From contig NZ_JANXCG010000006.1 in the NCBI RefSeq assembly GCF_025060375.1, positions 1 to 52,053 of the forward strand: a DNA stretch of 52,053 bases, written 5' to 3'. The notes below the pieces were generated by a model. That model made no database searches. It saw nothing but the letters and a program-made list of their open reading frames with translations, and was not told the origin of the DNA. This document shows, piece after piece, positions 1 through 33,424 of the stretch (position 1 is the stretch's first letter; every line of letters starts with the position of its first letter). Source of the DNA: Meiothermus sp. Its GTDB lineage: Bacteria; Deinococcota; Deinococci; Deinococcales; Thermaceae. A program made the position numbers and the translations under genes.

Positions 1-144
<144 letters not shown>

Positions 145-20813: not shown

Positions 20814-21182
20814 CTAAAGCGGGTCCACCGGCTTTGGCCTGCCGTCCGGCCCCAGCGCCACCATCACAAAGCCGGCCCGGCAGGCCAGCAAGCGTTCCTC
20901 GCGCTCTATGGGTTCCACCCACATCTCCACCTCGAGCCGCATCGAGGTCCTACCCACCTCCTTCACCCAGGCCACCAGCTCCACAATCGAGCCCTGCGGC
21001 ACCGGATGGCGGAAATCCATGGCATCGGCGTGTACCGTGACCACCTTGGCCCGGGCGTGCCGGGTGGCGGCCACAAAAGCCGCCTCATCCATCCAGGCCA
21101 TGGCCGTGCCACCGAAGAGGCTGCCGTAGTGGTTGCAATCGCCGGGGCGCACTAGGTGCACGGTGCGGGTCTCGCGGCTCAT
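20814..21182 (-). CDS. acyl-CoA thioesterase, hotdog fold
   Basis: A 122-residue YciA/BACH-type hotdog thioesterase that hydrolyses acyl-CoA. The motif DCNHYGSLFGGTAMAWMDEA at residues 15-34 contains the conserved Asn, the GG and the catalytic Asp at the start of the hotdog helix. It is the last gene of the nrdI-nrdE-metE-nrdF transcript. Its ATG overlaps the nrdF stop as ATGA, so it is translated from that message. Why a thioesterase should follow B12-sparing enzymes is unclear. It could be fortuitous, or linked to the CoA esters of B12-dependent mutase metabolism. Confidence 0.88.
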   Translation of the reverse strand: MSRETRTVHLVRPGDCNHYGSLFGGTAMAWMDEAAFVAATRHARAKVVTVHADAMDFRHPVPQGSIVELVAWVKEVGRTSMRLEVEMWVEPIEREERLLACRAGFVMVALGPDGRPKPVDPL

Positions 21183-22471
21183 GCCCCTCCTTGCCGGACC
21201 CGGGCCCGCTCCTCGCGGTAGAGGATGTAGGCCCGGGCTACCTCTGGGTAAGTCCGCATCAGCCCCTCCTCCACCAGGTCCTGAATCTCCTCCACCGAGA
21301 GGCTTTGGCGCTCAGCCCTGCGCTTGATGGGCTCCACCACACCCCGCGCAACCCGCTCCAGTTCTACCGTCACACCCACAGCAGCAGCGGCCTTCCCCAC
21401 CGCCCGCACAATGCGCATCTCATCAAAGGGCACCTCACGCCCATCCCGCTTCCGCACCGGCTTCAGGTCAGGGCTTTCCTCGGGAAAGTAGAAGTCAAGG
21501 TCCGAGAGGGGCTCTACCCGGGTGGTCTTGATGTAGCCGTTGCCCTTGGTGGAGAAAAAGTCGTGGTTCTTGGTCTCGGTGCGCAGGCCGGCCAGCACCA
21601 CCGGGTTCACCTCTTCGGCCTCCACCCCAAAGAAGGGCTCCAGCCCCAGGTTCATCAGGGCCTTATCGGCGTTGTAGCGGGAGAAGGTGCGCACCGCCTC
21701 CTCCAGGCCAATCGGCGCGTAGAGGGCCTGGGTATAGCGAGCCTCGAGGGCATCCAGCCGCTCCAGCAGCCCCAGCACTTCCCCTTGGAGCCTCCTCCGC
21801 TCCCCATCGCTCATCCCCGCGGCCCTTTCCTGGGCCAAGAGGCCCACATACACGCCGTGGATGGCCTCGTCGCGGAGGATTAGGCTGATGATCTCCCCCG
21901 AGCTGGTCAGCCGCCCCTGCCCGGCTAGGTAGAGAGGGTAGAAAAAGCCCGAGTAGAAAAGGTAAGACTCCAGAAGGACGCTCGCGGCCATGGCCCGGTA
22001 CAGGGTAGCTCTGTCGCCAATGGTGGTGTAGGCCTCGTGAATGAGGGCCAGCTTGGCCTGCAGCTCAGGCTGGCGCCGCACCCAGGCAAAAAGCTCCTCA
22101 ATGCGCTCCGAGGTGCAGAGGGTAGAGAAGATGGAGCTGTAGCTCTTGGCGTGCATCTGCTCCATGGCCCCCATGAAGGAAAGCACCGCCTTAGCCTGAA
22201 GGCTCTCCACCCCCAGAGCAATCCGCGGCATCCCCACGCCGCCCTGCAGGGTGTCCAAGAGGGTAAGCCCGGCCAGCACCTCCTCGTAGGCCCGCTGCTC
22301 GGCCCGGCTCAAGGTCATCCAGGACAGCTTGTCGTCGGCCAGGGGGATCTCTTCGTCGGTCCAGAACTGCCGCACGTTCTGGTCCCAGAACATCTTGGTA
22401 TAGGCGTCATCGGGTCGGTTCCAGTTGACCGCGCTGAAGGGGCTTTGTGGGCTGGAGAGGGGTCCGTTCAT
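21179..22471 (-). CDS. nrdF: class Ib ribonucleotide reductase radical subunit with C-terminal ATP-cone
   Basis: NrdF houses the metal-tyrosyl radical used by NrdE to reduce ribonucleoside diphosphates. All expected ligands are present: Asp73 (LLDTLQ), Glu104 and His107 (MEQMH), radical Tyr111, Glu168 (LLESY), and Glu202 and His205 (DEAIH). A normal NrdF is about 320-330 residues; this one has 430. After the R1-binding tail (SDLDFYF, about residue 323-329) comes an added domain of some 90 residues starting PVRKRDGREVPFDEMRIVRA. This is an ATP-cone, the allosteric ATP/dATP switch usually found on the large subunit. The ATG overlaps the metE stop as ATGA. Assignment to class Ib rests on nrdI and the NrdE type. 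Confidence 0.95.
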   Translation of the reverse strand: MNGPLSSPQSPFSAVNWNRPDDAYTKMFWDQNVRQFWTDEEIPLADDKLSWMTLSRAEQRAYEEVLAGLTLLDTLQGGVGMPRIALGVESLQAKAVLSFMGAMEQMHAKSYSSIFSTLCTSERIEELFAWVRRQPELQAKLALIHEAYTTIGDRATLYRAMAASVLLESYLFYSGFFYPLYLAGQGRLTSSGEIISLILRDEAIHGVYVGLLAQERAAGMSDGERRRLQGEVLGLLERLDALEARYTQALYAPIGLEEAVRTFSRYNADKALMNLGLEPFFGVEAEEVNPVVLAGLRTETKNHDFFSTKGNGYIKTTRVEPLSDLDFYFPEESPDLKPVRKRDGREVPFDEMRIVRAVGKAAAAVGVTVELERVARGVVEPIKRRAERQSLSVEEIQDLVEEGLMRTYPEVARAYILYREERARVRQGGA

Positions 22472-24783
22472 AAAGACTCCTGCGGGTTGAGGGGGGATTC
22501 TGCCCGCTTCCGAAGTTGCCGGGCAGCCTCAACAAGGTTGACCAGGGCTGGCTTAACCTCTTCCCATCTGCGGGTTTTCAGGCCGCAGTCGGGGTTGACC
22601 CATATCTGATGGGGGGCTAGGCGCTCTAGGGCCTTCTCCAAAAGCTCCACCATCTCGGCCACGGGCGGCACCCGCGGGGAGTGGATGTCGTAAATCCCGG
22701 GCCCGATCTGGTTGGGGTAGCGGTAGGAGACAAAGGCCTCGAGCAGCTCCATCTTTGAGCGCGAGGCCTCAATGGAGATCACATCGGCGTCCATATCGGC
22801 GATGGACTCGATGATGTCGTTGAACTCGGAGTAGCACATGTGGGTGTGAATCTGGGTCTCATCGGCCACCCCCGAGGCGCACAGCCGGAAGCAGGCCACC
22901 GCCCAGGCCAGGTAGCCGTCCCACTCGGCCCGGCGCAGCGGCAGGCCCTCCCGCAGGGCTGGCTCGTCAATCTGGATGACGCGGATTCCGGCTCGCTCGA
23001 GGTCGGCCACCTCATCCCGAAGGGCCAGGGCAATCTGGCGGCAAACCTGCTCGCGCGGAAGGTCGTCGCGCACAAAAGACCACTGCAGCATGGTCACGGG
23101 CCCGGTCAGCATGCCCTTGACCGGCTTTGAGGTAAGGGACTGGGCGTAGCTCGCCCACTCGAGGGTCATCGGACGGGGGCGCGAGACATCGCCAAAGAGA
23201 ATCGGGGGGCGCACGTAGCGCGAGCCGTAGCTCTGAACCCAACCGTGCTGGGTAAAGGCGTAGCCGCGGAGCTGCTCGGCGAAGTACTGCACCATATCGT
23301 TGCGCTCAAACTCCCCGTGCACGAGGACATCCAGGCCGATTTCCTCCTGCCAGCGCACCGCCTCCTCCACCTTGCTCTTGAGGAAGTCCGTGTAATCGGC
23401 GGCGCTCAGCTCACCCTTGGAGAAAGCAGCCCGGGCCTTGCGCACCTCGCTGGTCTGGGGGAAAGAGCCGATGGTGGTGGTGGGGAAAAGGGGCAGCCCA
23501 AGGCGGGCCTGCTGGACCTCTCGGCGCACCGGGAAAGGGCTCTTGCGGCGGGTCATCTCGGGCGTGATCCGCGCGAGGCGCTCCTGCACCTGAGGGTCGT
23601 GGATCCTGGGCGAGGTGCGGCGCGCGGCCACCGCCGCCGCCGAGGCGGCCAGCTCGTCCCTTACCGCCCCTCGCCCCTGGTTGAGGGCCCGGCCCAGAAT
23701 CGAGAGTTCTTCCAGCTTCTGCACCGCAAAGGCCAGCCAGCTCTTCAGCTCCGGGTCGAGGGCGGTTTCCAAGGAGAGGTCTATCGGCACGTGCAGCAAG
23801 GAGCAAGAAGGGGCGATGATCACCCGGTCTTCCCCCCGCGCCTCCACCACCGGCTCAATCCAATCCAAGATGGCCGGCAGGTTCGCCCGCCAGACGTTGC
23901 GCCCGTCAATCACCCCAAGCGAGAGGGTGAGTTCCCCTGGCGCCTTGAGGAGAACCGCCTCGAGCTCACCGGGGGCGCGCACCAGATCGAGGTGCACCCC
24001 GGCCACCGGCAGGGAAAGCGCGAGCTCGAGGTTCTCCCCGTAACCGCCAAAATAGTTGGTCAGGAGAAGGTTCAGCCCCGGCGCCGCCTCGGCCAGGGCT
24101 GTGTAGGCCCTGCGGAACGCGCTGTGGCTGGCCTCATCGAGGTCAAGCGAGAGCGCCGGCTCGTCCATCTGCACCCACCGGGCGCCGCAGTCGCGCAAGC
24201 GGCGCAGCACCTCGGCGTAGACCGGCAGAAGGCCCTCGAGCCAATCGAGCGGGTTCAGCGTCTTGTCCTTGCTTTTGGCGAGCTTGAGGTAGGTTACCGG
24301 CCCCAGCAGCACCGGCCGGGTCTCGTAGCCCAGGGCTTTGGCCTCCAGGTACTCGTCGATGGGCTTGGTGGAGGCCAGCTGGAAGGTCTGGTCCGGCTCG
24401 AGCTCCGGCACCATGTAGTGGTAGTTGGTATCAAACCACTTGGTCATCTCGAGCGCGGGCAGCCCCCTGGTTTCGCTGCCGCGGGCCATGGCGAAGTAGA
24501 GCTCGAGCGGAACCTCCCCGCCCTTCCACCCATACACCGCTGGAATTGCCCCAACCATAACGCTGGTGTCAAGCACGTGGTCGTAGAAGGAGAAGTCGTT
24601 GCTGGGGATATGGGTGATGCCCAGGGCGTGCTGCCTGGCCCAGTTGGCCTTGCGCAGCCCGCGCCCCACCTCCAGCAGGACGGAGGCAGGAGCCTTGCCC
24701 GACCAAAAATTCTCCAACGCGAACTTCAGCTCCCGCTTGGAGCCGATCCTCGGAAAACCCAAACTGCTGATTGCAACAGGCAC
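22468..24783 (-). CDS. metE: cobalamin-independent methionine synthase
   Basis: MetE transfers the methyl group of methyltetrahydropteroyl-triglutamate to homocysteine to make methionine, without B12. At 771 residues it has the full two-barrel length. It starts with the typical SSLGFPRIGSKRELKFALE. The C-terminal half carries the zinc ligands: HTHMCYSEF near residue 645 and NPDCGLKTR near residue 735. The GTG start is preceded by AAAGGAG. It lies 53 bases after nrdE and overlaps nrdF by four bases, placing it inside the reductase operon under the upstream cobalamin riboswitch. This fits its role as a B12-sparing enzyme. Confidence 0.97.
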   Translation of the reverse strand: MPVAISSLGFPRIGSKRELKFALENFWSGKAPASVLLEVGRGLRKANWARQHALGITHIPSNDFSFYDHVLDTSVMVGAIPAVYGWKGGEVPLELYFAMARGSETRGLPALEMTKWFDTNYHYMVPELEPDQTFQLASTKPIDEYLEAKALGYETRPVLLGPVTYLKLAKSKDKTLNPLDWLEGLLPVYAEVLRRLRDCGARWVQMDEPALSLDLDEASHSAFRRAYTALAEAAPGLNLLLTNYFGGYGENLELALSLPVAGVHLDLVRAPGELEAVLLKAPGELTLSLGVIDGRNVWRANLPAILDWIEPVVEARGEDRVIIAPSCSLLHVPIDLSLETALDPELKSWLAFAVQKLEELSILGRALNQGRGAVRDELAASAAAVAARRTSPRIHDPQVQERLARITPEMTRRKSPFPVRREVQQARLGLPLFPTTTIGSFPQTSEVRKARAAFSKGELSAADYTDFLKSKVEEAVRWQEEIGLDVLVHGEFERNDMVQYFAEQLRGYAFTQHGWVQSYGSRYVRPPILFGDVSRPRPMTLEWASYAQSLTSKPVKGMLTGPVTMLQWSFVRDDLPREQVCRQIALALRDEVADLERAGIRVIQIDEPALREGLPLRRAEWDGYLAWAVACFRLCASGVADETQIHTHMCYSEFNDIIESIADMDADVISIEASRSKMELLEAFVSYRYPNQIGPGIYDIHSPRVPPVAEMVELLEKALERLAPHQIWVNPDCGLKTRRWEEVKPALVNLVEAARQLRKRAESPLNPQESL

Positions 24784-24836: not shown

Positions 24837-26915
24837 TCACACCGCGCAGCTTATGCACTCCTCCACCGAAAGGTTCTTGGTGCGGGTGTAGTAGAGGCTT
24901 TTGAGGCCCTTCTTCCAGGCGTAGATGTAGAGCCGGGCCAGCTCGCGGGTGCTGGTCTCGCTGGTCACATACAACACCGTGCTGATGCCCTGGTCCACGT
25001 GGGGCTGAATCTCGGCCACCAGGTCAATCAGGCGGTACATGTTGATGTGGTAGGCCGACTTGTAGTACCAGTAGGTCTCCTCCGAGAGGAAAGGGGCAGG
25101 GTAGTAGGTGGTGGCGTTGCCGTAGGTGCGGGTCTCCACCACATCCACGATGGGAGCGATGGAGGGGGTGGCGTTTTGGATGTAGCTGATGCTGGCCGTG
25201 GGGGCAATCGCCAGGCGGTAGGCGTGGTAGAGGCCGTGGACCCGCACCTCGTCCCTAAGGCGTGCCCAGTCGGCAGGGGTGGGCAGGGCGATGCCCTCGA
25301 AGAGGCGCCGCACGGCTTCGGTGCGCGGGCGGAAGTCCTCCTCTAGATAGGGCTCGAAGTAGACCCCGCTGGCGTAGTCGGAGCGCTCGAAGCCCTCAAA
25401 GGTCAGCCCGCGCTCCCGGGCAATCTGCATGGAGCGCTCTATGGAGTAGAAGTTCACCGCGGCGAAGAAGCTCCGGGCGAAGTCGCGGGCCTCTTTCGAC
25501 TCGTAGCGGATGCGGTTTTTGGCCAGGTAGCCGTGCAGGTTCATGGCCCCCAGGCCCACCGAGTGGAAGGCCCGGTTGGCCCGGCGCACCCCAGGGGCGT
25601 TCCTAATGTCCGAAAGGTCGCTCACCGCGGTGAGCATGTCCATGGCGGTGTGCACGCTTTCCTGCAGCCCCTTGGACTCCATCACGTTCACGATGTTGAG
25701 TGAGCCCAGGTTGCAGCTGATGTCGTAGCCAATCTGGTCGCCCGCGCCGTAGTCGCCGATGATGGAGGTGGTCTGGAGCTGGAATATCTCGGTGCAGAGG
25801 TTGGACATCTTGATCTGCCCGAGGCCCTTGAGCGGGTGGGCCCGGTTGGCGTTGGACTTGTAGATGAGGTAGGGGTAGCCGGACTCAAACTGGGTCTGGG
25901 CAATGCGGGTGAGCATGGCCCGGGCCGATAGGGGGCGCTTTTTGACCGCGGGATGGGCCAAGAGCTCCTCGTAGCGCCGGTCCAGGTCCATGTCGTCGAG
26001 GTGTTCGCCGAAGGCCTGGTAGACCGAGTAGGGAGCGAAGACATAGAAGTCCTCCCCCCGCTCGGCCAGCTCGAAGAACTTGCTCGGCACAATCAGCCCC
26101 AAGGAGAGGGTCTGAAGGCGGCTTTTCTCGTCGGCATTGATCTTCTTGGTGTCGAGGAACTCCTCCACATCCCAGTGGAAGATGTTGAGGTAGACCGCCC
26201 CGGCCCCCTTGCGCTGGCCCATCTGGTCGGCGTAGTTGAAGGCGTCCTCGAACAGCTTCGCCACCGGCACCACCCCCTTGGCCGCGTGGGCCACGCCCTT
26301 GATGGGCTCTCCCCGCCCCCGCAGCTTGGAGAGGTTGATGGCCACCCCCCCGCCGATTTTGGAGAGCTGCATGGCGGTGTTGAGGGTGTAGCCGATGGAG
26401 TTGAGGGAGTCGTCGAGCTCGAGCAGGAAGCACGAGACCAGCTCCCCCCGCCGGGCCCGGCCCGCGTTCAAGAAGGTGGGGGTGGCGGGCTGGTAGCGCC
26501 CCTCCATCATCGCCCGCACGTAGGCGCGGGCTTTACCCACGTCGCCCTGGGCTAAGTGCAGCGCCACCGCCACAACGCGGTCCTCGTAGCGCTCGAGGTA
26601 GTGTTTTTTATCGTCGGACTTCAGGGCGTAGTCCTTGTAGAACTTGGAGATGGCCATGAAGCTGGCAAAGCGGAAGCCGTAGCTGTAGGCCAGGTCGGAA
26701 AGCTCAAGCAGGTCTTCCTCCCGGTACAGCCGGAAGAAGTCCTCGTAGTAGCCCTCAGCGATCAGGGCCCGCAAGCGCTCGATGGGCCCGGGGAACGACC
26801 TCAGCTTCTTCTGAACCTCCTCCTCAAAGGCCTGGGCGGCCTCGAGATCCTTCTCCAGCTGGAAAAAACCATCTCTCTTGTGCAACAGGGCGCTGTTCAG
26901 CTCAAGGTAGCGCAT
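24837..26915 (-). CDS. nrdE: class Ib ribonucleotide reductase catalytic subunit
   Basis: NrdE reduces ribonucleoside diphosphates to deoxy forms using the radical from NrdF. The 692-residue protein lacks the N-terminal ATP-cone of class Ia enzymes. It has the first redox cysteine in ELVSCFLLELDDS, the KIGGGVAINLSKLRG segment, and the radical site NLCTE (Asn, Cys, Glu). The second redox cysteine is in SCNLGSLNIVNV, APTASISYI follows later, and the C-terminal CISC pair is reduced by a redoxin. Unlike the nearby nrdJ, its NLCTE site has no intein. The ATG lies inside the last codons of nrdI (14-base overlap). Confidence 0.96.
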   Translation of the reverse strand: MRYLELNSALLHKRDGFFQLEKDLEAAQAFEEEVQKKLRSFPGPIERLRALIAEGYYEDFFRLYREEDLLELSDLAYSYGFRFASFMAISKFYKDYALKSDDKKHYLERYEDRVVAVALHLAQGDVGKARAYVRAMMEGRYQPATPTFLNAGRARRGELVSCFLLELDDSLNSIGYTLNTAMQLSKIGGGVAINLSKLRGRGEPIKGVAHAAKGVVPVAKLFEDAFNYADQMGQRKGAGAVYLNIFHWDVEEFLDTKKINADEKSRLQTLSLGLIVPSKFFELAERGEDFYVFAPYSVYQAFGEHLDDMDLDRRYEELLAHPAVKKRPLSARAMLTRIAQTQFESGYPYLIYKSNANRAHPLKGLGQIKMSNLCTEIFQLQTTSIIGDYGAGDQIGYDISCNLGSLNIVNVMESKGLQESVHTAMDMLTAVSDLSDIRNAPGVRRANRAFHSVGLGAMNLHGYLAKNRIRYESKEARDFARSFFAAVNFYSIERSMQIARERGLTFEGFERSDYASGVYFEPYLEEDFRPRTEAVRRLFEGIALPTPADWARLRDEVRVHGLYHAYRLAIAPTASISYIQNATPSIAPIVDVVETRTYGNATTYYPAPFLSEETYWYYKSAYHINMYRLIDLVAEIQPHVDQGISTVLYVTSETSTRELARLYIYAWKKGLKSLYYTRTKNLSVEECISCAV

Positions 26916-27291
26916 GGTTCTCCTCTAAAGCGGCCACAGCGGCCAAAAAGCGCAGCCGGTCCTTCTCTGTACCCGAAAGCTCAAACTTAAGGAGCACCGG
27001 CAGACCGTAGCGGGCGGAGAGCAGGTCGGCGGCACGGGCGAAGTTTTGGCCCCAGTTGCGGTTGCCACTGGCCGCCACGCCCTTTATGAAGGGCCGGTTG
27101 CCCTCCACAAAGCGCACCACCTCCGGGGGTACCTGGCCAAAGCCGGTGGTGTAGGTTACCAGCAGGCAGGGCACCTCTACCCGCTCCCCTCCATCCAGAA
27201 TCCGCCTTTTTGGCAGGGGCAGGCGCTCAACGAAGCGGGCCACATTGCCGGTTTTGGAAGCATAGACCAGGAGCAATTTCCCAGAAGGCAC
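26902..27291 (-). CDS. nrdI: NrdI flavodoxin-like activator of class Ib ribonucleotide reductase
   Basis: NrdI is a small FMN protein that supplies superoxide to assemble the dimanganese-tyrosyl cofactor of NrdF. The 129-residue protein starts KLLLVYASKTGNVARFVERL, with the FMN phosphate loop SKTGN. VTYTTGFGQVPPEV and GVAASGNRNWG, which form the flavin pocket, follow. The frame is open 24 codons upstream, but GTG 27291 follows a strong GGAGG-rich site and matches the family start. It is the first gene of the riboswitch-controlled operon and marks the downstream reductase as class Ib. Confidence 0.94.
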   Translation of the reverse strand: MPSGKLLLVYASKTGNVARFVERLPLPKRRILDGGERVEVPCLLVTYTTGFGQVPPEVVRFVEGNRPFIKGVAASGNRNWGQNFARAADLLSARYGLPVLLKFELSGTEKDRLRFLAAVAALEENHALP

Positions 27292-27464
27292 AAAACCCTC
27301 CCTCCTGTGCAAAACTGCCAGGCTCAAACCCGAGAAGGCCCCCCGCTGGCCCAAGGGGCGCATCGACCGGACGCCGCATCACACCCCCGCCTGCGGGCTG
27401 GTGGAGAGGCAAGCAAGAGCCACTCTAGTTTCTTGGGGGAGCTTTCACCTTGACCATCCTTTCC

Positions 27465-27572
27465 GTCCTTGACGCGAGGACTAGGAGACCCAGCCGGGCA
27501 GGTAATCGGGCTTTCACCGTTGCGCGACAGCGGCGGAATTGCACCGCACTTCCCCTGTCACCGGTGGGGAAA
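27465..27572 (-). ncRNA. cobalamin (B12) riboswitch upstream of nrdI
   Basis: On the minus strand, GGTGACAGGGGAAG (complement 27562-27549) is followed by GCGGTGCAATTCCGCCGCTG. Then come CGCGCAACGGTGAAAGCC and CGATTACCTGCC (ending at complement 27497). These are the conserved core segments of cobalamin riboswitches, including the B12 box. A GTCCT/AGGAC hairpin follows (27465-27481) and may be the kissing-loop or switching stem. Further down, a CACC-CCCG / CGGG-GGTG hairpin (27382-27403) could be part of the expression platform, although it has no T-run. Adenosylcobalamin binding would be expected to lower expression of nrdI-nrdE-metE-nrdF. Confidence 0.93.
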
Positions 27573-27677: not shown

Positions 27678-30600
27678 CTAGCCACACTTGCTGTACCCAC
27701 AGCTGTAGCACTTAACGCAGCCCTCCTCCCGCACCAGGGCCGCCTCGCCGCACTCGGGGCAAGGAGAGCCGGGCTTTGGCGGAGGGGTCAGGGCCCGCTG
27801 CATGGCCTGGGGTACCAGGTCCTCGCCCTTGACCTCTGAAAGAGAAACCTTCCCACTGGTCTCGAGCGCCACTGCAATCAGGTCGGCCTTGCTGGTCACA
27901 AAGCGACCCTGGTAGCTGCCGTACAGCCCCCCGTTGATGCCGCGCAGGGTCCGGACCAGCTCGGCTGGGGGCACCCCGTACTGCAGAGCTTTGGAGATGA
28001 TGCGGCCCAGGGCCTCACTATCAGCATTGGCCTCGTCCCCAGCCTTGCCCGAGGTAAGGATCACCTCTATCGGATGCTCACCCTGCATGTTCACCGTAAC
28101 CAGAAAGCTGCGGCGGGTACCATCAGCCGCGGTAAGCTTAACCATATCGGTGTACCCCACCAGCCGACCGGTTCGCTCAAAGACGGGGCGGGCTGGGGCC
28201 GGCGCCGGGGGCACCTCGAGCAACCCGGGCTGCACGGCTACGGTCTTCTCCGTAGACTTCTCCTCCTTGCTCACCGAAAGCACCTGGAACTCCCTGGAGC
28301 CGTCCCGGTAAACGGTAATCCCCTTGCACCCCGTGCGGTAGGCTTCTGTGTAGGCCGCCTCCACGTCCTCCACCGTAGCCTCGTGGGGAAGGTTTATGGT
28401 TTTGGACAGGGAGTTCCCTGCGTAGCCCTCTGCATCAAAGGCAGTCTGCACCACCCCCTGCATCCGCACATGGTCCAGGGGAGAAACGTCGTGGGCACAC
28501 TGGAAGACCTCACGAATGGCCTTGGGAACGAAGGACAGGTTCTGCACCGAACCCCGTCCATCCTTTTGGATTTCCTCCACGACCTTTTCCCAATCCCACC
28601 GCCCGCCTTTTTCGTAACCAGGAGGGGGCGGATAACCTTCCATGAGCTCCACGAAGAGGGGATGGAGAAGGGGCTTGTACTCCCCCCCAATGCGGCGCCA
28701 GACAAAGGGGCTGAAGACCGGCTCAATGCCGCTAGAAACCCCCATCAACATGCTCGTAGTGCCGGTAGGAGCCACAGTGAGCAGGGCAACGTTGCGGCGG
28801 GGACGAATGCCCAAGGAGCGGAAGTACTCCTCGTGCTCGGCATAGAGGGGGAAAACCCCCCGCTCTTCAGCAAGCTGCTCCGAAGCTGCGATGGCCTCCT
28901 CCCGCAGGGCGCTCATCACCTGGGCCACGGCCCGCCTTGCCTCGGGAGAGGCATAGGGCAGGCCCAGCTTGATGAGCATGTCGGCCAGGCCCATGACCCC
29001 TAGGCCCAACCGGCGCAGCTTCTGGCTGGCCACCCGGTTGTCCTCTAGGGCGAAGACGTTCACGTCTAGAACGTTGTCCAGGAACCGCACCGCAGTCCGG
29101 ACGTCTTTGCGAAACTCCTCCATCTGGAAGGCCCCGTCCTTGACGTAAGCGGCAAGGTTAAGAGCCCCCAAATCGCAGGGTTCGCCCACGGTGAGGGGGA
29201 TTTCACCGCAGTTGTGGCAAACAAAGCCGTTGGCAACAAGGCTGTGGGTCACCGGCTCGGTGAGGTCGTAAACGGGGAGCTCTCCTAAGGGCTCTATGCG
29301 CTCCACCCGCGCCACGAAGGGCCGGCGGTGGCTGCCCTGCGGGGGGTTCTGAAGGAAGCTCCGAAGCTTTGCCTGCTTCTCCTCCTGCAAGAAACCCACT
29401 GCCTCGGTAAAGCGGTCCCGGTTCCAGGCCCCCAGGACAAGCTCGTACTCCCCCGCCACGGGGTATTCCCTCGTACCACCCTGCCCGTTGGCCAAAGGCT
29501 TTTTGCCCACGGAGCGGCGCCGGCCAATTTTGCTGAAGATGCCCAGGTTCAGGAGAAGAAGCTGCACATCCTGGAGAAAGCCCAGACTGGGGGAAGCAAG
29601 GCGCAGCGAAGCACCCTGCCTGCCCTGGCTCACCTGCACCGCGCCATCGGCACTGAAGAGCCCCTGGAGGAAGCCCACCACGGCTTCCCGCGGTGCCCGG
29701 AAAATGCTTTCGGGAAGCCGCTTTTCCGTGGCCTTGGTCGCTTTCACCCCCAATGCCTGGAAGAACTCCACCGGCGTGCCTTTGAGGTGGAAGTGGTACC
29801 CGTTGAAGGGCGTTTCCTGTAGGGTACCCCCGCCAAACCAGTCCCCAAGGAGGTCCAGAAGCCAGCCCACAGCCCGGTAATCCTCCTTGGAGAAGAAGAG
29901 GCCCACCCCGTCCTCCCGTAGGTAGCCACTCCCCAAAAGCCACCCTATGGCCACACCCAACTCGCGGCTCCACTGAGTGGGGAGGTTCCCGCACCGTACC
30001 CGGACATCCGCCCCGCCCAGCCCGTCCCTCCCGCTTGCCGCAACCACCCGCTCACGCACCACAGCCAAAGCTGGGGCAGGCAAAGCCTGTTCCTTCGGGA
30101 AAAGGCCCTCCCCGCTTTGGATCAGGATCTGGTCGCCCGGGCGCAGGCTGCCGGCCTCCTTGTAGCCCTCGGGAGTAAGAACCCGGTGGTCGGGGGTAAG
30201 CGCAAGCTCCAACCCCTCCTTCGTGCTAAGGCGGATCACGGGCTTTACCCCGGTGAAAAAGGCCCTAGCCGCCCGACGCACCGTGGTGCCTCTCAAGCTT
30301 AAGGGCCGCCCAACCCCACCCAGGGGCGCCCGGTTGTCCGTGACCAGGAAGAACCCCTCGGGTCTTTTTGCCAACTCCGCAATGGGCACCAAGCCGTACT
30401 CCGTGGGCACCCGCGTGGAGCCGACAAAGCAAGGATTGGTGGAGCGGATCTGGTAGCGTTCCCCCAACCCCTTCAAGGCGGAGAGGGCGTTGATGCGATC
30501 TACGAAGATGAGCCCCGGCTCCCCCGTGGCCCAGGCGTGCCAGGCAATCTCGTGCCAAAGCCAACGGGCTGGAACCTTGCCGCCAAAGAGAGGAATGGGA

Positions 30601-31784
30601 CGAGCCCCATCTGAGGGCCGTTCCGGTAGGTCGGGGAGTTTACCGGTGTAGGCCCCCTGGACGGGGCAGGGGTAGTACTTGCCCGGCACCTCGGCGGGCT
30701 CTACTGGCCAAAGCCCATCGTTCTGCAAGGCCTGCCAAAAGGATTCGGTAACCAGGATGGAGATGTTGAAAGTGGAGATGTCGCCCTCTGCAGCCTCACG
30801 ATCCAAGTCCTTGGCGGTGAGGAAGTCCAGGAGATCGGGGTGGTCGATGGAGAGGGTGGCCATCCCTGCCCCGCGCCGGGTACCCCCCTGGCGCACCACC
30901 CGGAGCACGGGGGCATAGACATAGCGCAGCGTCGCCACCGGCCCAGCCTTCTCTGCCCCCAGGTTAGCCCACTCCAAGAAGTTGTCAAATATCTCCACCA
31001 AGAAACTCACAGGGCCGCTGCTGGTACCCCCCGAGCCCCGGATGGGAGCCCCTTCGGGGCGCAGGGCGCTGAAGTCCACGTGGGGCTCCTGGCCTCTTAT
31101 TGCCAGGCCCAAGGCAGCCTGGGCGCTCTCAATAATGCCCCGCATATCATCGGGAACCACCAGGGCATCCGCGGGCTTCTCCCGCACCGTCATCACCCCG
31201 TAGCGGCGGGCCATAGCGGCCAGCTCCGGGCGCAGAAGGCCGTAGACCACCCGGGTCCAGTTGCGCACGGTAATCGGCTCTTTCTCCCCATCGGGGTTGA
31301 TGGGGGGCCGCATCAACCCCCTGATAAAGTCCTCCACATCCGGGTGGGCAGCGCTCATGTAGGCGAACCCCCGCACAGTACCCCGGGAACCGGCGTTCCT
31401 GCGGGAGACGTAAGGGTCAAGGTTCACCCCGTTCCCTCCCCCCACCTTGGTGACCAGGGCCAGTTTGGCGGCCACCTCCATAATCCCCTCAAAGCTACTG
31501 GGATCGTGCTCGGTGGCCCCCTGCACAAAGCAGTTGAGCACGTTGCCGTGCTGGGTACCGGCTCCAGCCAAGACCCGTCCTCCTGGGCAGAAGCGCTTGG
31601 AGGCCATCAGGCGGTAAAACTCCTCTGCCCAATGGGCCCTCTCCCCCTCCCTTTCGGGCAAGGCCACCCAGTTGGCCACCCGGCGAAACATCCCGAAGAC
31701 ATCGCCATCCCCGGGCTGCATGTACTGGCGTTTAGCGATAGAGCGGGCGTGGTCGTCAAAAGTAGCCGGCTGAAAACTGCCCAT
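27678..31784 (-). CDS. nrdJ: class II (B12-dependent) ribonucleotide reductase, intein-containing
   Basis: NrdJ reduces ribonucleotides with a radical made from adenosylcobalamin and needs no separate radical subunit. The 1368-residue precursor has the first redox cysteine in GNVLNCFVQG near residue 100, KVGGGNGVNLDPY near 130, and the radical-site motif NPCGEIPL split by an intein. The second redox cysteine is in GEPCDLGALNLAAY, and APTGTTSMLMG follows later. The C-terminus is cysteine-rich (CPECGE, CVKCYSCGYSKCG). Removing the 407-residue intein leaves 961 residues. The frame extends 68 codons upstream, but ATG 31784 follows GGAGGA at the right spacing. It has its own NrdR-box promoter and no riboswitch. 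Confidence 0.95.
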   Translation of the reverse strand: MGSFQPATFDDHARSIAKRQYMQPGDGDVFGMFRRVANWVALPEREGERAHWAEEFYRLMASKRFCPGGRVLAGAGTQHGNVLNCFVQGATEHDPSSFEGIMEVAAKLALVTKVGGGNGVNLDPYVSRRNAGSRGTVRGFAYMSAAHPDVEDFIRGLMRPPINPDGEKEPITVRNWTRVVYGLLRPELAAMARRYGVMTVREKPADALVVPDDMRGIIESAQAALGLAIRGQEPHVDFSALRPEGAPIRGSGGTSSGPVSFLVEIFDNFLEWANLGAEKAGPVATLRYVYAPVLRVVRQGGTRRGAGMATLSIDHPDLLDFLTAKDLDREAAEGDISTFNISILVTESFWQALQNDGLWPVEPAEVPGKYYPCPVQGAYTGKLPDLPERPSDGARPIPLFGGKVPARWLWHEIAWHAWATGEPGLIFVDRINALSALKGLGERYQIRSTNPCFVGSTRVPTEYGLVPIAELAKRPEGFFLVTDNRAPLGGVGRPLSLRGTTVRRAARAFFTGVKPVIRLSTKEGLELALTPDHRVLTPEGYKEAGSLRPGDQILIQSGEGLFPKEQALPAPALAVVRERVVAASGRDGLGGADVRVRCGNLPTQWSRELGVAIGWLLGSGYLREDGVGLFFSKEDYRAVGWLLDLLGDWFGGGTLQETPFNGYHFHLKGTPVEFFQALGVKATKATEKRLPESIFRAPREAVVGFLQGLFSADGAVQVSQGRQGASLRLASPSLGFLQDVQLLLLNLGIFSKIGRRRSVGKKPLANGQGGTREYPVAGEYELVLGAWNRDRFTEAVGFLQEEKQAKLRSFLQNPPQGSHRRPFVARVERIEPLGELPVYDLTEPVTHSLVANGFVCHNCGEIPLTVGEPCDLGALNLAAYVKDGAFQMEEFRKDVRTAVRFLDNVLDVNVFALEDNRVASQKLRRLGLGVMGLADMLIKLGLPYASPEARRAVAQVMSALREEAIAASEQLAEERGVFPLYAEHEEYFRSLGIRPRRNVALLTVAPTGTTSMLMGVSSGIEPVFSPFVWRRIGGEYKPLLHPLFVELMEGYPPPPGYEKGGRWDWEKVVEEIQKDGRGSVQNLSFVPKAIREVFQCAHDVSPLDHVRMQGVVQTAFDAEGYAGNSLSKTINLPHEATVEDVEAAYTEAYRTGCKGITVYRDGSREFQVLSVSKEEKSTEKTVAVQPGLLEVPPAPAPARPVFERTGRLVGYTDMVKLTAADGTRRSFLVTVNMQGEHPIEVILTSGKAGDEANADSEALGRIISKALQYGVPPAELVRTLRGINGGLYGSYQGRFVTSKADLIAVALETSGKVSLSEVKGEDLVPQAMQRALTPPPKPGSPCPECGEAALVREEGCVKCYSCGYSKCG
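29211..30431 (-). other. intein in NrdJ (407 residues)
   Basis: The in-frame insert begins with Cys1 (CFVGSTRVPTEYG) and ends VCHN, followed by extein CGEIPL. It has the splicing block B motif LTPDHRV near intein residues 78-84 and the terminal His-Asn pair, so all splicing residues are present. The central part is a LAGLIDADG homing endonuclease domain: motif 1 near residues 159-170 (IGWLLGSGYL) and motif 2 near 253-264 (FLQGLFSADGA). Motif 1 has Ser where inteins usually have Asp (GDG), so cleavage may be lost. It sits directly before the predicted thiyl-radical cysteine, which serves as the +1 splicing nucleophile. Confidence 0.95.
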
Positions 31785-31830
31785 AAGTCCTCCGAACAGC
31801 CTCAAAGCAACCCCCCACTGGCTACTTGCT

Positions 31831-31885
31831 CTACATCTGGGGGATTTCGGCCAAGATGCTACTACATGTTGTAGTTCATAAGCAA
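31831..31885 (-). promoter_or_regulatory. nrdJ promoter with two NrdR-type boxes
   Basis: TTGCTT (complement 31885-31880), an 18-base spacer and TAGCAT (complement 31861-31856) form a plausible promoter. CTACAACATGTAG lies within the spacer (31862-31874) and is identical to the box in the nrdI promoter. A weaker half-matching box (plus-strand CTACATCTGGGGG, 31831-31843) is centred 31 bases away. The geometry copies that of the nrdI operon. Confidence 0.8.
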
Positions 31886-31969
31886 GGGCGTGGGAAAGGT
31901 GGTTCAGAATACCCGCCAACAACCGAACTGGACCCCTCCATCCCAGGCTGACCGGGCAGTAAAAACCAG

Positions 31970-33424
31970 CTACCCTTGAACCTGCCAAACCCCTAGGGAG
32001 AATGGCTCGAGCAGGCCGTCCTCGAGGTACCCCCCCACACAGCGCCCTTCCCTACCAGAGATTAGGTCCACCGCCCGCTCACCCCGCGACCAAGTTCCAT
32101 GAAGGGGAATCTGGATGCGCCAGGGCTCAGGGGTAGCGTTGACGGCAACCACCACGCTCTCCCCACCGTGGAGGCGGGCAAAGGCCAGGTGGCCGTCCTG
32201 TCCGTACAGGTACTGGTAGCGCCCATAGCGGAGCGGGACCAGCGAGCGCCGCAACGCGGCCATCCGCTGGATGGTCTCCCGGATGGGGGTTTGCCAGCGC
32301 TCCGGGTCCCATATCATGCCCCGTCGGTTGTCGGGGTCGTGCCCCCCGGGCATCCCCACCTCATCGCCGTAGTAGACCATGGGGGCCCCGGGCAGGGTAA
32401 AGAGCAGGGCAAAAGCCAGGGAGACCCGCTCCACCTGACCCCGCATCAGGCTAAAGATACGGGGTGTGTCGTGGGAGGTCATGAGGTTCATCTGAGCGGT
32501 CACAACCTCCCAGCGGTAGCGGCTAAAGAGGTCGGCCAAGCGGTGGTGAAAGGCCAAGGCCCCCAGGGTCTCTACCCTTCCCAAACCGCTTCTGGCTGCA
32601 AGGTCCTTGTCCAAGGCCTCGCCCCCCACAAAGCCCAGAACCGCCCGACCCAGGGGGTAGTTCATCACCGCATCGAACTGGTCGCCCTGAAGCCAGCGGC
32701 TGGCGTCATCCCAAATCTCGCCCACAATGTAGGCCTCTGGGTTGATGGCCTTGACCCGCCGACGAAACTCCCGCCAAAACTCGTCATCGTCTATCTCGTT
32801 GGGAACATCCAACCGCCAGCCGTCAATACCCTGCTCAATCCAGTACTCCGCGACCCGGAACAGATAAGCGCGGCACTCCGGGCTCGAGGTGTTGAACTTG
32901 GGCAGCTCGGGGTTGTTCCACCAAGCCGCGTAGTTGGGATGCTTGGTGTAGGCGGCCAAGGGAAACTTGTAGATGTGGAACCAGTCCCGGTAAGGCGAGG
33001 CGGCCTCGTTTTCCATCACATGCTGAAAGGCAAAATGGGCCCTTCCGCAGTGGTTGAAGACCCCATCCAGGATGACCCTCATCCCCCTGCGGTGGGCCTC
33101 CTCGAGGAGGCTCTTCAGGGCTTCGTTCCCCCCCAACACGGGGTCTACCTGGAAGTAGTCGCTGGTATGGTAGCGGTGGTTAGCAGTGGAGCTGAACACG
33201 GGGCATAGGTAGAGGGCATTGAAGCCAAGCTCCTGCAGGTAGTCAAGCCCTTCTATGACCCCCCAAAGGTTGCCCCCCTTAAAGCCCCGCAGGGTGGGTG
33301 GGGCCTCCCAAGGCTCAAAAGCCCCTCGGACTGGCGTAGGTTGCCCCAAGGGCCCTTGGCCAATGCGGAAGCGGTCGGGAAAAATCTGGTAGAAAACCGC
33401 GTCTTTGACCCAATCAGGCGCCAT
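31970..33424 (-). CDS. alpha-amylase family glycosidase (cyclomaltodextrinase/neopullulanase-like)
   Basis: A 484-residue GH13 enzyme that hydrolyses alpha-glucans or maltodextrins. The four conserved regions are present: DGVFNHCG near residue 105, GWRLDVPNE near 200 (nucleophile Asp), VGEIWD near 235 (acid/base Glu) and LMTSHDTPR near 300 (transition-state Asp). It starts directly with the barrel (WVKDAVFYQIFPDRF) and lacks the N-terminal domain of many neopullulanases. No signal peptide is seen, so it is probably cytoplasmic. ATG 33424 is chosen over upstream in-frame starts because the family begins here; a weak GGGGAT precedes it. Confidence 0.9.
   Translation of the reverse strand: MAPDWVKDAVFYQIFPDRFRIGQGPLGQPTPVRGAFEPWEAPPTLRGFKGGNLWGVIEGLDYLQELGFNALYLCPVFSSTANHRYHTSDYFQVDPVLGGNEALKSLLEEAHRRGMRVILDGVFNHCGRAHFAFQHVMENEAASPYRDWFHIYKFPLAAYTKHPNYAAWWNNPELPKFNTSSPECRAYLFRVAEYWIEQGIDGWRLDVPNEIDDDEFWREFRRRVKAINPEAYIVGEIWDDASRWLQGDQFDAVMNYPLGRAVLGFVGGEALDKDLAARSGLGRVETLGALAFHHRLADLFSRYRWEVVTAQMNLMTSHDTPRIFSLMRGQVERVSLAFALLFTLPGAPMVYYGDEVGMPGGHDPDNRRGMIWDPERWQTPIRETIQRMAALRRSLVPLRYGRYQYLYGQDGHLAFARLHGGESVVVAVNATPEPWRIQIPLHGTWSRGERAVDLISGREGRCVGGYLEDGLLEPFSLGVWQVQG

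Follow-up and report, generated by a model that had tools for sequence, protein, structure and literature searches.

Gene order at the locus

The stretch of DNA analysed here, hereafter the window, comprises 52,053 nucleotides of a contig of Meiothermus sp., and begins inside a 16S rRNA gene, at its 5' end (1-144, minus strand). Its central part encodes, all on the minus strand, the components of a class Ib ribonucleotide reductase (RNR): the flavodoxin gene nrdI (26902..27363; PF07972, 1.8e-27; TIGR00333), the catalytic subunit gene nrdE (24837..26915; TIGR04170, 1035.6 bits; Pfam RNR_N, lgN and lgC) and the radical-generating subunit gene nrdF (21179..22471). The gene of the B12-independent methionine synthase, metE (22468..24783; TIGR01371, 1131.2 bits), lies between nrdE and nrdF, and its stop overlaps the nrdF ATG. 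The nrdF stop is in turn overlapped by the start of a 4HBT thioesterase gene (20814..21182; PF03061, 7.7e-22). NrdI and NrdE are encoded alongside NrdF in the window and in the 17/17 loci fetched from relatives. The position of metE between nrdE and nrdF is found in 3/18 loci (the window, L189 and L202), and in L197 a diverged copy (57% identity) stands directly behind nrdF.

Upstream of nrdI, we found the aptamer of an AdoCbl-II (cobalamin) riboswitch (27492..27566, minus strand; RF01689, 43.1 bits, gathering 36.5). A cobalamin-class riboswitch occurs just upstream of nrdI in 17/17 fetched relatives (L189-L205), and thus in 18/18 loci with the window; among the relatives, 14 belong to RF01689 (that of L202 is partial), two to RF00174 and one to RF01482. 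The riboswitch links B12 shortage to the class Ib RNR and, in some species, also to metE. No NrdR-box-like sequence was found in the window by a simple regular expression. Our literature search found no paper that brings together riboswitch, Meiothermus and ribonucleotide reductase.

Further upstream lies nrdJ (27678..31988, minus strand; Pfam, TIGR02504), encoding the B12-dependent class II RNR and interrupted at about residues 521-926 by a LAGLIDADG intein; this insert is missing in L189, whose nrdJ is uninterrupted. The nrdJ of L191 (G033) seems to retain the same insert and to have another, some 1.3 kb long, near residue 369. In 21/21 genomes of genera g1-g3 there is a long RNR catalytic frame (980-1786 aa), putatively NrdJ, and it is the sole RNR catalytic frame in the four genomes of the genus that lack NrdF. 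The nrdIEF genes are an apparent B12-independent backup to NrdJ, and the riboswitch is expected to turn this backup on when cobalamin is short.

A class Ib NrdF with a C-terminal ATP-cone

The product of nrdF is a class Ib radical-generating subunit of 430 aa that carries an ATP-cone at its C-terminus (open reading frame, TIGR04171, PF00268, PF03477). The reading frame runs uninterrupted from 22471 to 21179 on the minus strand, with an ATG start, 430 codons and zero internal stops. The NCBIfam model of class Ib NrdF (TIGR04171) spans residues 13-329 with 441.7 bits (cut-off 355), and the metal/radical core, residues 15-290 (21602..22429, minus strand), matches Pfam Ribonuc_red_sm (PF00268) with an E value of 6.5e-75. 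D73, E104, H107, Y111, E168, E202 and H205, which we take to be the metal ligands and the radical tyrosine after E. coli NrdF, are invariant in 18/18 NrdF rows.

The NrdE-docking motif DLDFYF occupies residues 324-329 (21485..21502, minus strand). It was placed by alignment with the 322-residue NrdF chains 6qo5 and 4bmo, presumably from Bacillus, which align up to their residue 320 and there reach residue 329 of the window protein. Of the cone-less NrdFs of sister genera, L023 and L024 terminate exactly at DEDFVF and L025 four residues further. Judging from these sequences, the counterpart of DLDFYF in ordinary NrdFs is at or close to the C-terminus, so that the cone of the window starts about where NrdF normally ends. 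A reading of the DNA made from the sequence alone (the sequence-only reading) had put the extension behind the R1-binding tail at about 100 residues; we count 101 after DLDFYF. The first nine of them (330-338; 21458..21484, minus strand) form a linker which, in the alignment of the 14 fusions described below, is variable in sequence and near-constant in length (9 residues in 13/14, 8 in one).

The ATP-cone itself covers residues 339-423 (21203..21457, minus strand), where PF03477 matches with 78.3 bits (gathering 25.8) and an E value of 6.7e-22. This value and the single clean open reading frame rule out a frameshift or a chance cone. The profile search thus bears out the ATP-cone that had been proposed for the C-terminus of NrdF, its match lying inside residues 335-426 where the cone had been sought, and PVRKRDGREVPFDEMRIVRA begins, as described, at residue 338. 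The interval first given for the cone, 21179-21470, covers residues 335-430 and the stop and is one base (21470) too long. NrdE had been described as free of a cone, and indeed Pfam finds only RNR_N, lgN and lgC in it, with no ATP-cone match at E 0.01.

An AlphaFold model of residues 325-430 (from a 51-row alignment) has a mean pLDDT of 90.5 and folds into a beta cap and four helices. Its closest PDB fold is the NrdD of P. copri (8p2c; Z 12.8 over 94 residues, rmsd 1.8). When Z and identity are taken jointly, the nearest folds are the cones of P. copri and S. thermophilus NrdD, P. aeruginosa NrdA and L. blandensis NrdB (Z 12.1-12.8, 30-39% identity), while E. coli and human NrdA reach Z values of up to 10.8 with 15-18% identity. 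The best PDB match by sequence is L. blandensis NrdB (5OLK; 5.4e-9). By Z alone, the repressor NrdR of E. coli is level with the RNR cones (Z 12.1; 16-17% identity), so the assignment of the Meiothermus cone to the two-nucleotide RNR type draws on identity and motifs. The full-length model has an ordered core and an ordered cone, and 27 of residues 302-333 fall below pLDDT 50; the docking peptide is therefore predicted to form a flexible tether that is anchored on either side.

Distribution of the fusion

The sequence-only reading had proposed a survey of NrdF architectures in the phylum. We scanned 111 genomes, of which 20 had a match; two of these (G001, G009) are distant R2-like matches that were excluded from the NrdF counts, and 18 encode NrdF. 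The fusion is confined to one genus in this set: NrdF is encoded by 14/18 Meiothermus genomes (the window's own included), and Pfam finds the cone in 14/14 of them. The remaining four have zero NrdF match, and the NrdFs of four genomes from two sister genera (G023-G026) lack the cone by Pfam, so that PF03477 is matched in 14/18 members of the NrdF alignment. One sister-genus genome (G023) has two nrdF copies with identical translations (L025 and L028) on one replicon, G023:C2, which matches the 348-kb Allomeiothermus silvanus plasmid NC_014213.1; the backup RNR is therefore plasmid-borne and duplicated there.

Elsewhere the fusion did not turn up in the collections we searched. The scan of genome contigs used two exact peptide patterns and covered 239 stretches and 192 relatives, of which the best 80 were kept. 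None of the 72 non-Meiothermus cone loci among these best 80 of 192 has the NrdF motif HDFFS in the frame of the cone; their cones sit 0-164 residues into the stop-to-stop frame, several frames being cut by the contig end. Among viral contigs, the best 80 of 240 relatives gave 65 loci (L029-L093), 11 of them without HDFFS; the other 54 NrdF frames, which have HDFFS and a stop, contain no fusion and finish 21-49 residues past HDFFS, versus 123 in the window protein. Plasmids gave 659 matching records, with 0 covering 80% of the query. Bacillota gave 0/398 genomes at E 1e-18, a threshold chosen stricter than the cone-only matches of 9e-17, with no positive control in that set. Phyla beyond those named were sampled only via the genome-contig, viral and plasmid collections.

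Published precedent and related systems

The C-terminal cone architecture is already published. An NrdF with a C-terminal ATP-cone was reported, from two sequences, as encoded only by a few Meiothermus species whose NrdE has no cone (Rozman Grinberg et al. 2018, eLife 7:e31529, PMC5794259), and a later paper cites the fusion as a class Ib case (Burnim et al., Protein Sci 2022, PMC9669993). The NrdF in the first of these papers has the same architecture and comes from the same genus as that of the window. As to function, that paper describes the N-terminal cone of L. blandensis NrdB, and the accessible text counts the two Meiothermus sequences without residue, selection, riboswitch or functional analysis, whereas 14 genomes are compared here. 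The sequence-only reading knew of no characterised C-terminal cone on a class Ib NrdF; our search of CC-licensed PMC papers likewise found no characterisation of one, although the architecture itself stands in PMC5794259 and PMC9669993. What this work adds to print is the 14-genome comparison, the single cone clade, the selection analysis, the residues and the riboswitch context.

The most similar of the described systems differ in where the cone sits. L. blandensis NrdBi (5OLK) has its cone on beta and none on alpha, as here, and the pairing residues are conserved between the two. However, its cone is N-terminal, its docking tail is free, and it is a subunit with a MnIII/MnIV centre and not a class Ib NrdF; the window protein, a class Ib NrdF whose cone occupies residues 339-423, thus falls outside the N-terminal-cone NrdBi group. 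The NrdB of Facklamia ignava also bears its cone on beta, as a dATP on/off switch that works through tetramers (PMC6187632), but it is a Grx-ATP-cone-NrdB fusion with an N-terminal cone and an extra glutaredoxin domain, and not an NrdF. The class III NrdD cones (Prevotella copri 8P2C/8P28, Streptococcus thermophilus 9D3X) are the closest in fold (Z 12.2-12.8), yet they are N-terminal and belong to the catalytic glycyl-radical subunit. NrdR, which is present in the host genome and has a similar cone fold, differs in being a Zn-ribbon repressor.

Conserved residues and selection on the cone

The 14/14 fusions share V339, K341, R342, G344, F349, I354, E394, Q397, E401, L404 and M405, as well as Y415, I416, L417, Y418, R419 and R426. 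These include the nucleotide-binding motif VxKR[DE]G, which together with R426 is found in all 14. For the cone of L. blandensis NrdB, D73, M80, K89, I92, I93 and R95 were named for cone pairing or helix packing, and R102 as a contact of the gamma-phosphate (PMC5794259). We mapped these residues by shifting the numbering of that paper by three residues against the PDB chain, an offset that fits 8/9 of the named residues, Asp76 landing on Glu. With it, D73 corresponds to D398 (13/14; N in L017), and M80, K89, I92, I93, R95 and R102 to M405, R/K413, I416, L417, R419 and R426 (14/14 each). The residues agree with the two-nucleotide cone type (PaNrdA, LbNrdB, PcNrdD), pairing surface included. The conservation of the last helix proves less than it seems, since the comparison cones were retrieved with the pattern AYILYRE[EA], which partly builds in its uniformity, and since the pairing residues are common to a wider group of cones.

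One position departs from the solved structures. Residue 353 is Arg in 14/14 fusions, and Lys in four solved RNR cones and in the host NrdR. As 17 of 77 other cones also have Arg here (Lys in 55, another residue in 5), R353 is tolerated in cones but may alter the affinity.

The cone is under purifying selection, which in close pairs is weaker than on the core. For the three closest pairs, dN/dS is 0.17, 0.17 and 0.29 in the cone and 0.09, 0.08 and 0.13 in the core, so about twice as high in the cone. Across the 14 pairs of lowest core dS, out of 91, the cone has values of 0.17-0.48, which are below those of the core in two of the 14.

Origin and probable loss of the cone

A phylogeny that also includes 82 other cones unites all 14 fused ones in a single clade (100/99), which indicates a single capture of the cone. 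This clade is nearest to the NrdD cones with weak support (80/49), from few columns and with an unsettled bootstrap. The host NrdR is not supported as the source, its cone being very distant in the tree. Nor is a cone-bearing NrdE or NrdJ of the genus, with 0 cone matches in the RNR catalytic frames of the 24 genomes of the family that were searched. Elsewhere in the tree, one further cone falls next to the L. blandensis NrdB cone (99/93), and L177 is, by the cone, the sister of another locus. Alignment A3, which included cone fragments, looked misaligned, and A4 and A5 were used instead; the trees do not include L028, the identical second nrdF copy.

The core tree suggests a loss. The cone-less NrdF L021 (from G024) is 84% identical to that of the window and groups with nine fused NrdFs (100/99), and its frame terminates in FPEEALR, partway into the former linker. 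An AU test rejects a tree in which all 14 fused NrdFs are separated from the four without a cone (p 0.006), but does not reject L021 just outside the nine (p 0.38); the tested groups were chosen with the tree already in view, several branches are long and deeper forks lack resolution. Because the five other fused NrdFs fall outside the group that holds L021 and the nine, loss of the cone in L021 is the most likely course. G024, the window and L189 have in common that metE is inserted between nrdE and nrdF. The NrdE of G024 branches outside the nine (96/92 in the NrdE tree), and for this reason its operon is probably a mosaic; recombination instead of simple deletion could have removed the L021 cone. 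That a cone-less NrdF groups among fused ones also means that the switch is dispensable.

A probable dATP switch behind the docking tail

We favour the view that the fused domain is functional as an ATP-cone, binds two adenine nucleotides and controls the overall activity of this class Ib RNR, in which NrdE has no cone. The parts of this proposal differ in strength: the cone very probably binds nucleotide and dATP probably inhibits the enzyme, pairing of the cones is somewhat better than an even call, and gating of the tail by the cone is a tentative addition. Since the nucleotide and pairing residues of the N-terminal NrdB cones are kept, the same chemistry is the first expectation. Those cones are dATP switches that act via beta tetramers, and in the class I examples described dATP locks the complex into an unproductive quaternary arrangement (PMC5794259, PMC6187632).

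With ATP bound, the Meiothermus cones would stay apart, NrdF would be a dimer and its docking tails would insert into NrdE, giving an active B12-independent enzyme. On dATP build-up, dATP would fill the cone and the cones would pair through helices alpha3/alpha4; the paired cones would lock NrdF as a tetramer or higher oligomer, making the productive alpha2beta2 complex impossible. Pairing might also withhold or misplace the docking tail, because each cone hangs only nine residues (eight in one species) behind the docking motif. The geometry should differ from that of L. blandensis, where the alpha-binding surfaces stay accessible and alpha does bind beta4, though the complexes are non-productive (PMC5794259), whereas here the paired cones would restrain the tails directly. 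A version in which the paired, dATP-loaded cones act as a leash that holds the NrdF tails off NrdE, so that dATP would govern docking itself and would do so in the backup RNR only, is rather doubtful in our judgement. A role of the cone in dATP control, as the sequence-only reading had it, is likely. Its idea that dATP would control the complex in a distinct manner is a hypothesis: the conserved cone-cone surface points first to the known route, dATP-driven pairing as in L. blandensis or F. ignava NrdB, to which the C-terminal placement would plausibly add a tail-gating step.

The tail could also be gated without any beta oligomers, the cone folding on its own tail or on NrdE so that ATP and dATP would directly tune the affinity between NrdE and NrdF; the cone could even be an ATP-dependent clamp that strengthens docking. 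The linker keeps its near-constant length despite its varied sequence, so the cone must adjoin the docking site, and residues 302-333, from core to cone, are largely disordered in the model. However, the 14 species are close relatives and may simply have inherited the constant linker, and the L. blandensis pairing residues are kept although they would be superfluous to such a mechanism, which we consider unlikely.

It is less probable still that the cone is a passenger, which folds and may bind nucleotide but has lost activity control. In favour are the uniform K-to-R difference at 353, the intact cone-less L021 among the fused NrdFs and a dN/dS that, in the three closest pairs, is about twice as high for the cone as for the core. 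Yet the nucleotide residues are invariant in 14/14, the cone is kept in all 14 NrdF-encoding genomes among the 18 of the genus, and the 14 lowest-core-dS pairs of 91 span 0.17-0.48, with the cone below the core in two. The Meiothermus hosts are thermophiles and NrdI is encoded in the same operon, which would suit a role apart from dATP inhibition such as high-temperature stabilisation or contact with NrdI in cofactor assembly. This last possibility is very remote, since the related genera manage with cone-less NrdFs and the accessible text of PMC5794259 and PMC6187632 describes no such role for an RNR-linked ATP-cone.

Proposed feedback on an apparent B12-independent backup

The preferred reading, a dATP switch on NrdF, can be set against the other cones of the family. 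Neither the NrdJ of the window (by Pfam) nor any other RNR catalytic frame among the 24 genomes has a cone match. Their cone matches outside NrdF lie in frames of 156-306 aa (NrdR size) or 393-598 aa (with several cones), whose identities were read for the window's genome. One example, on host contig C50 (L003:802-2385, minus strand), has 527 aa, with two ATP-cones and then a weak AAA match, and is probably 2-phosphoglycerate-kinase-like; similar several-cone frames occur in the 24 genomes. ATP-cone control of an RNR would thus be found only on the B12-independent enzyme in these genomes, under what we infer to be repression by B12. As a riboswitch stands upstream of all 18 nrdIEF loci examined, the putative cone switch sits on the apparent backup to NrdJ. 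This context and the lack of cone matches in the RNR catalytic frames suggest that only the backup gained feedback through an ATP-cone.

If this is true, Meiothermus would have an allosteric switch on its radical subunit immediately after the docking peptide, at the other end from the cones of the NrdB proteins studied. Whether an ATP-cone works wherever it is attached becomes a question that can be tested within one family, where fused and cone-less NrdFs that are 84% identical, together with a single capture, make a natural comparison pair. The Meiothermus fusion, already published, is not a new kind of system but an easily testable mechanism with a natural cone-less control, in which a nucleotide-sensing domain probably switches the B12-independent RNR off when dATP builds up.
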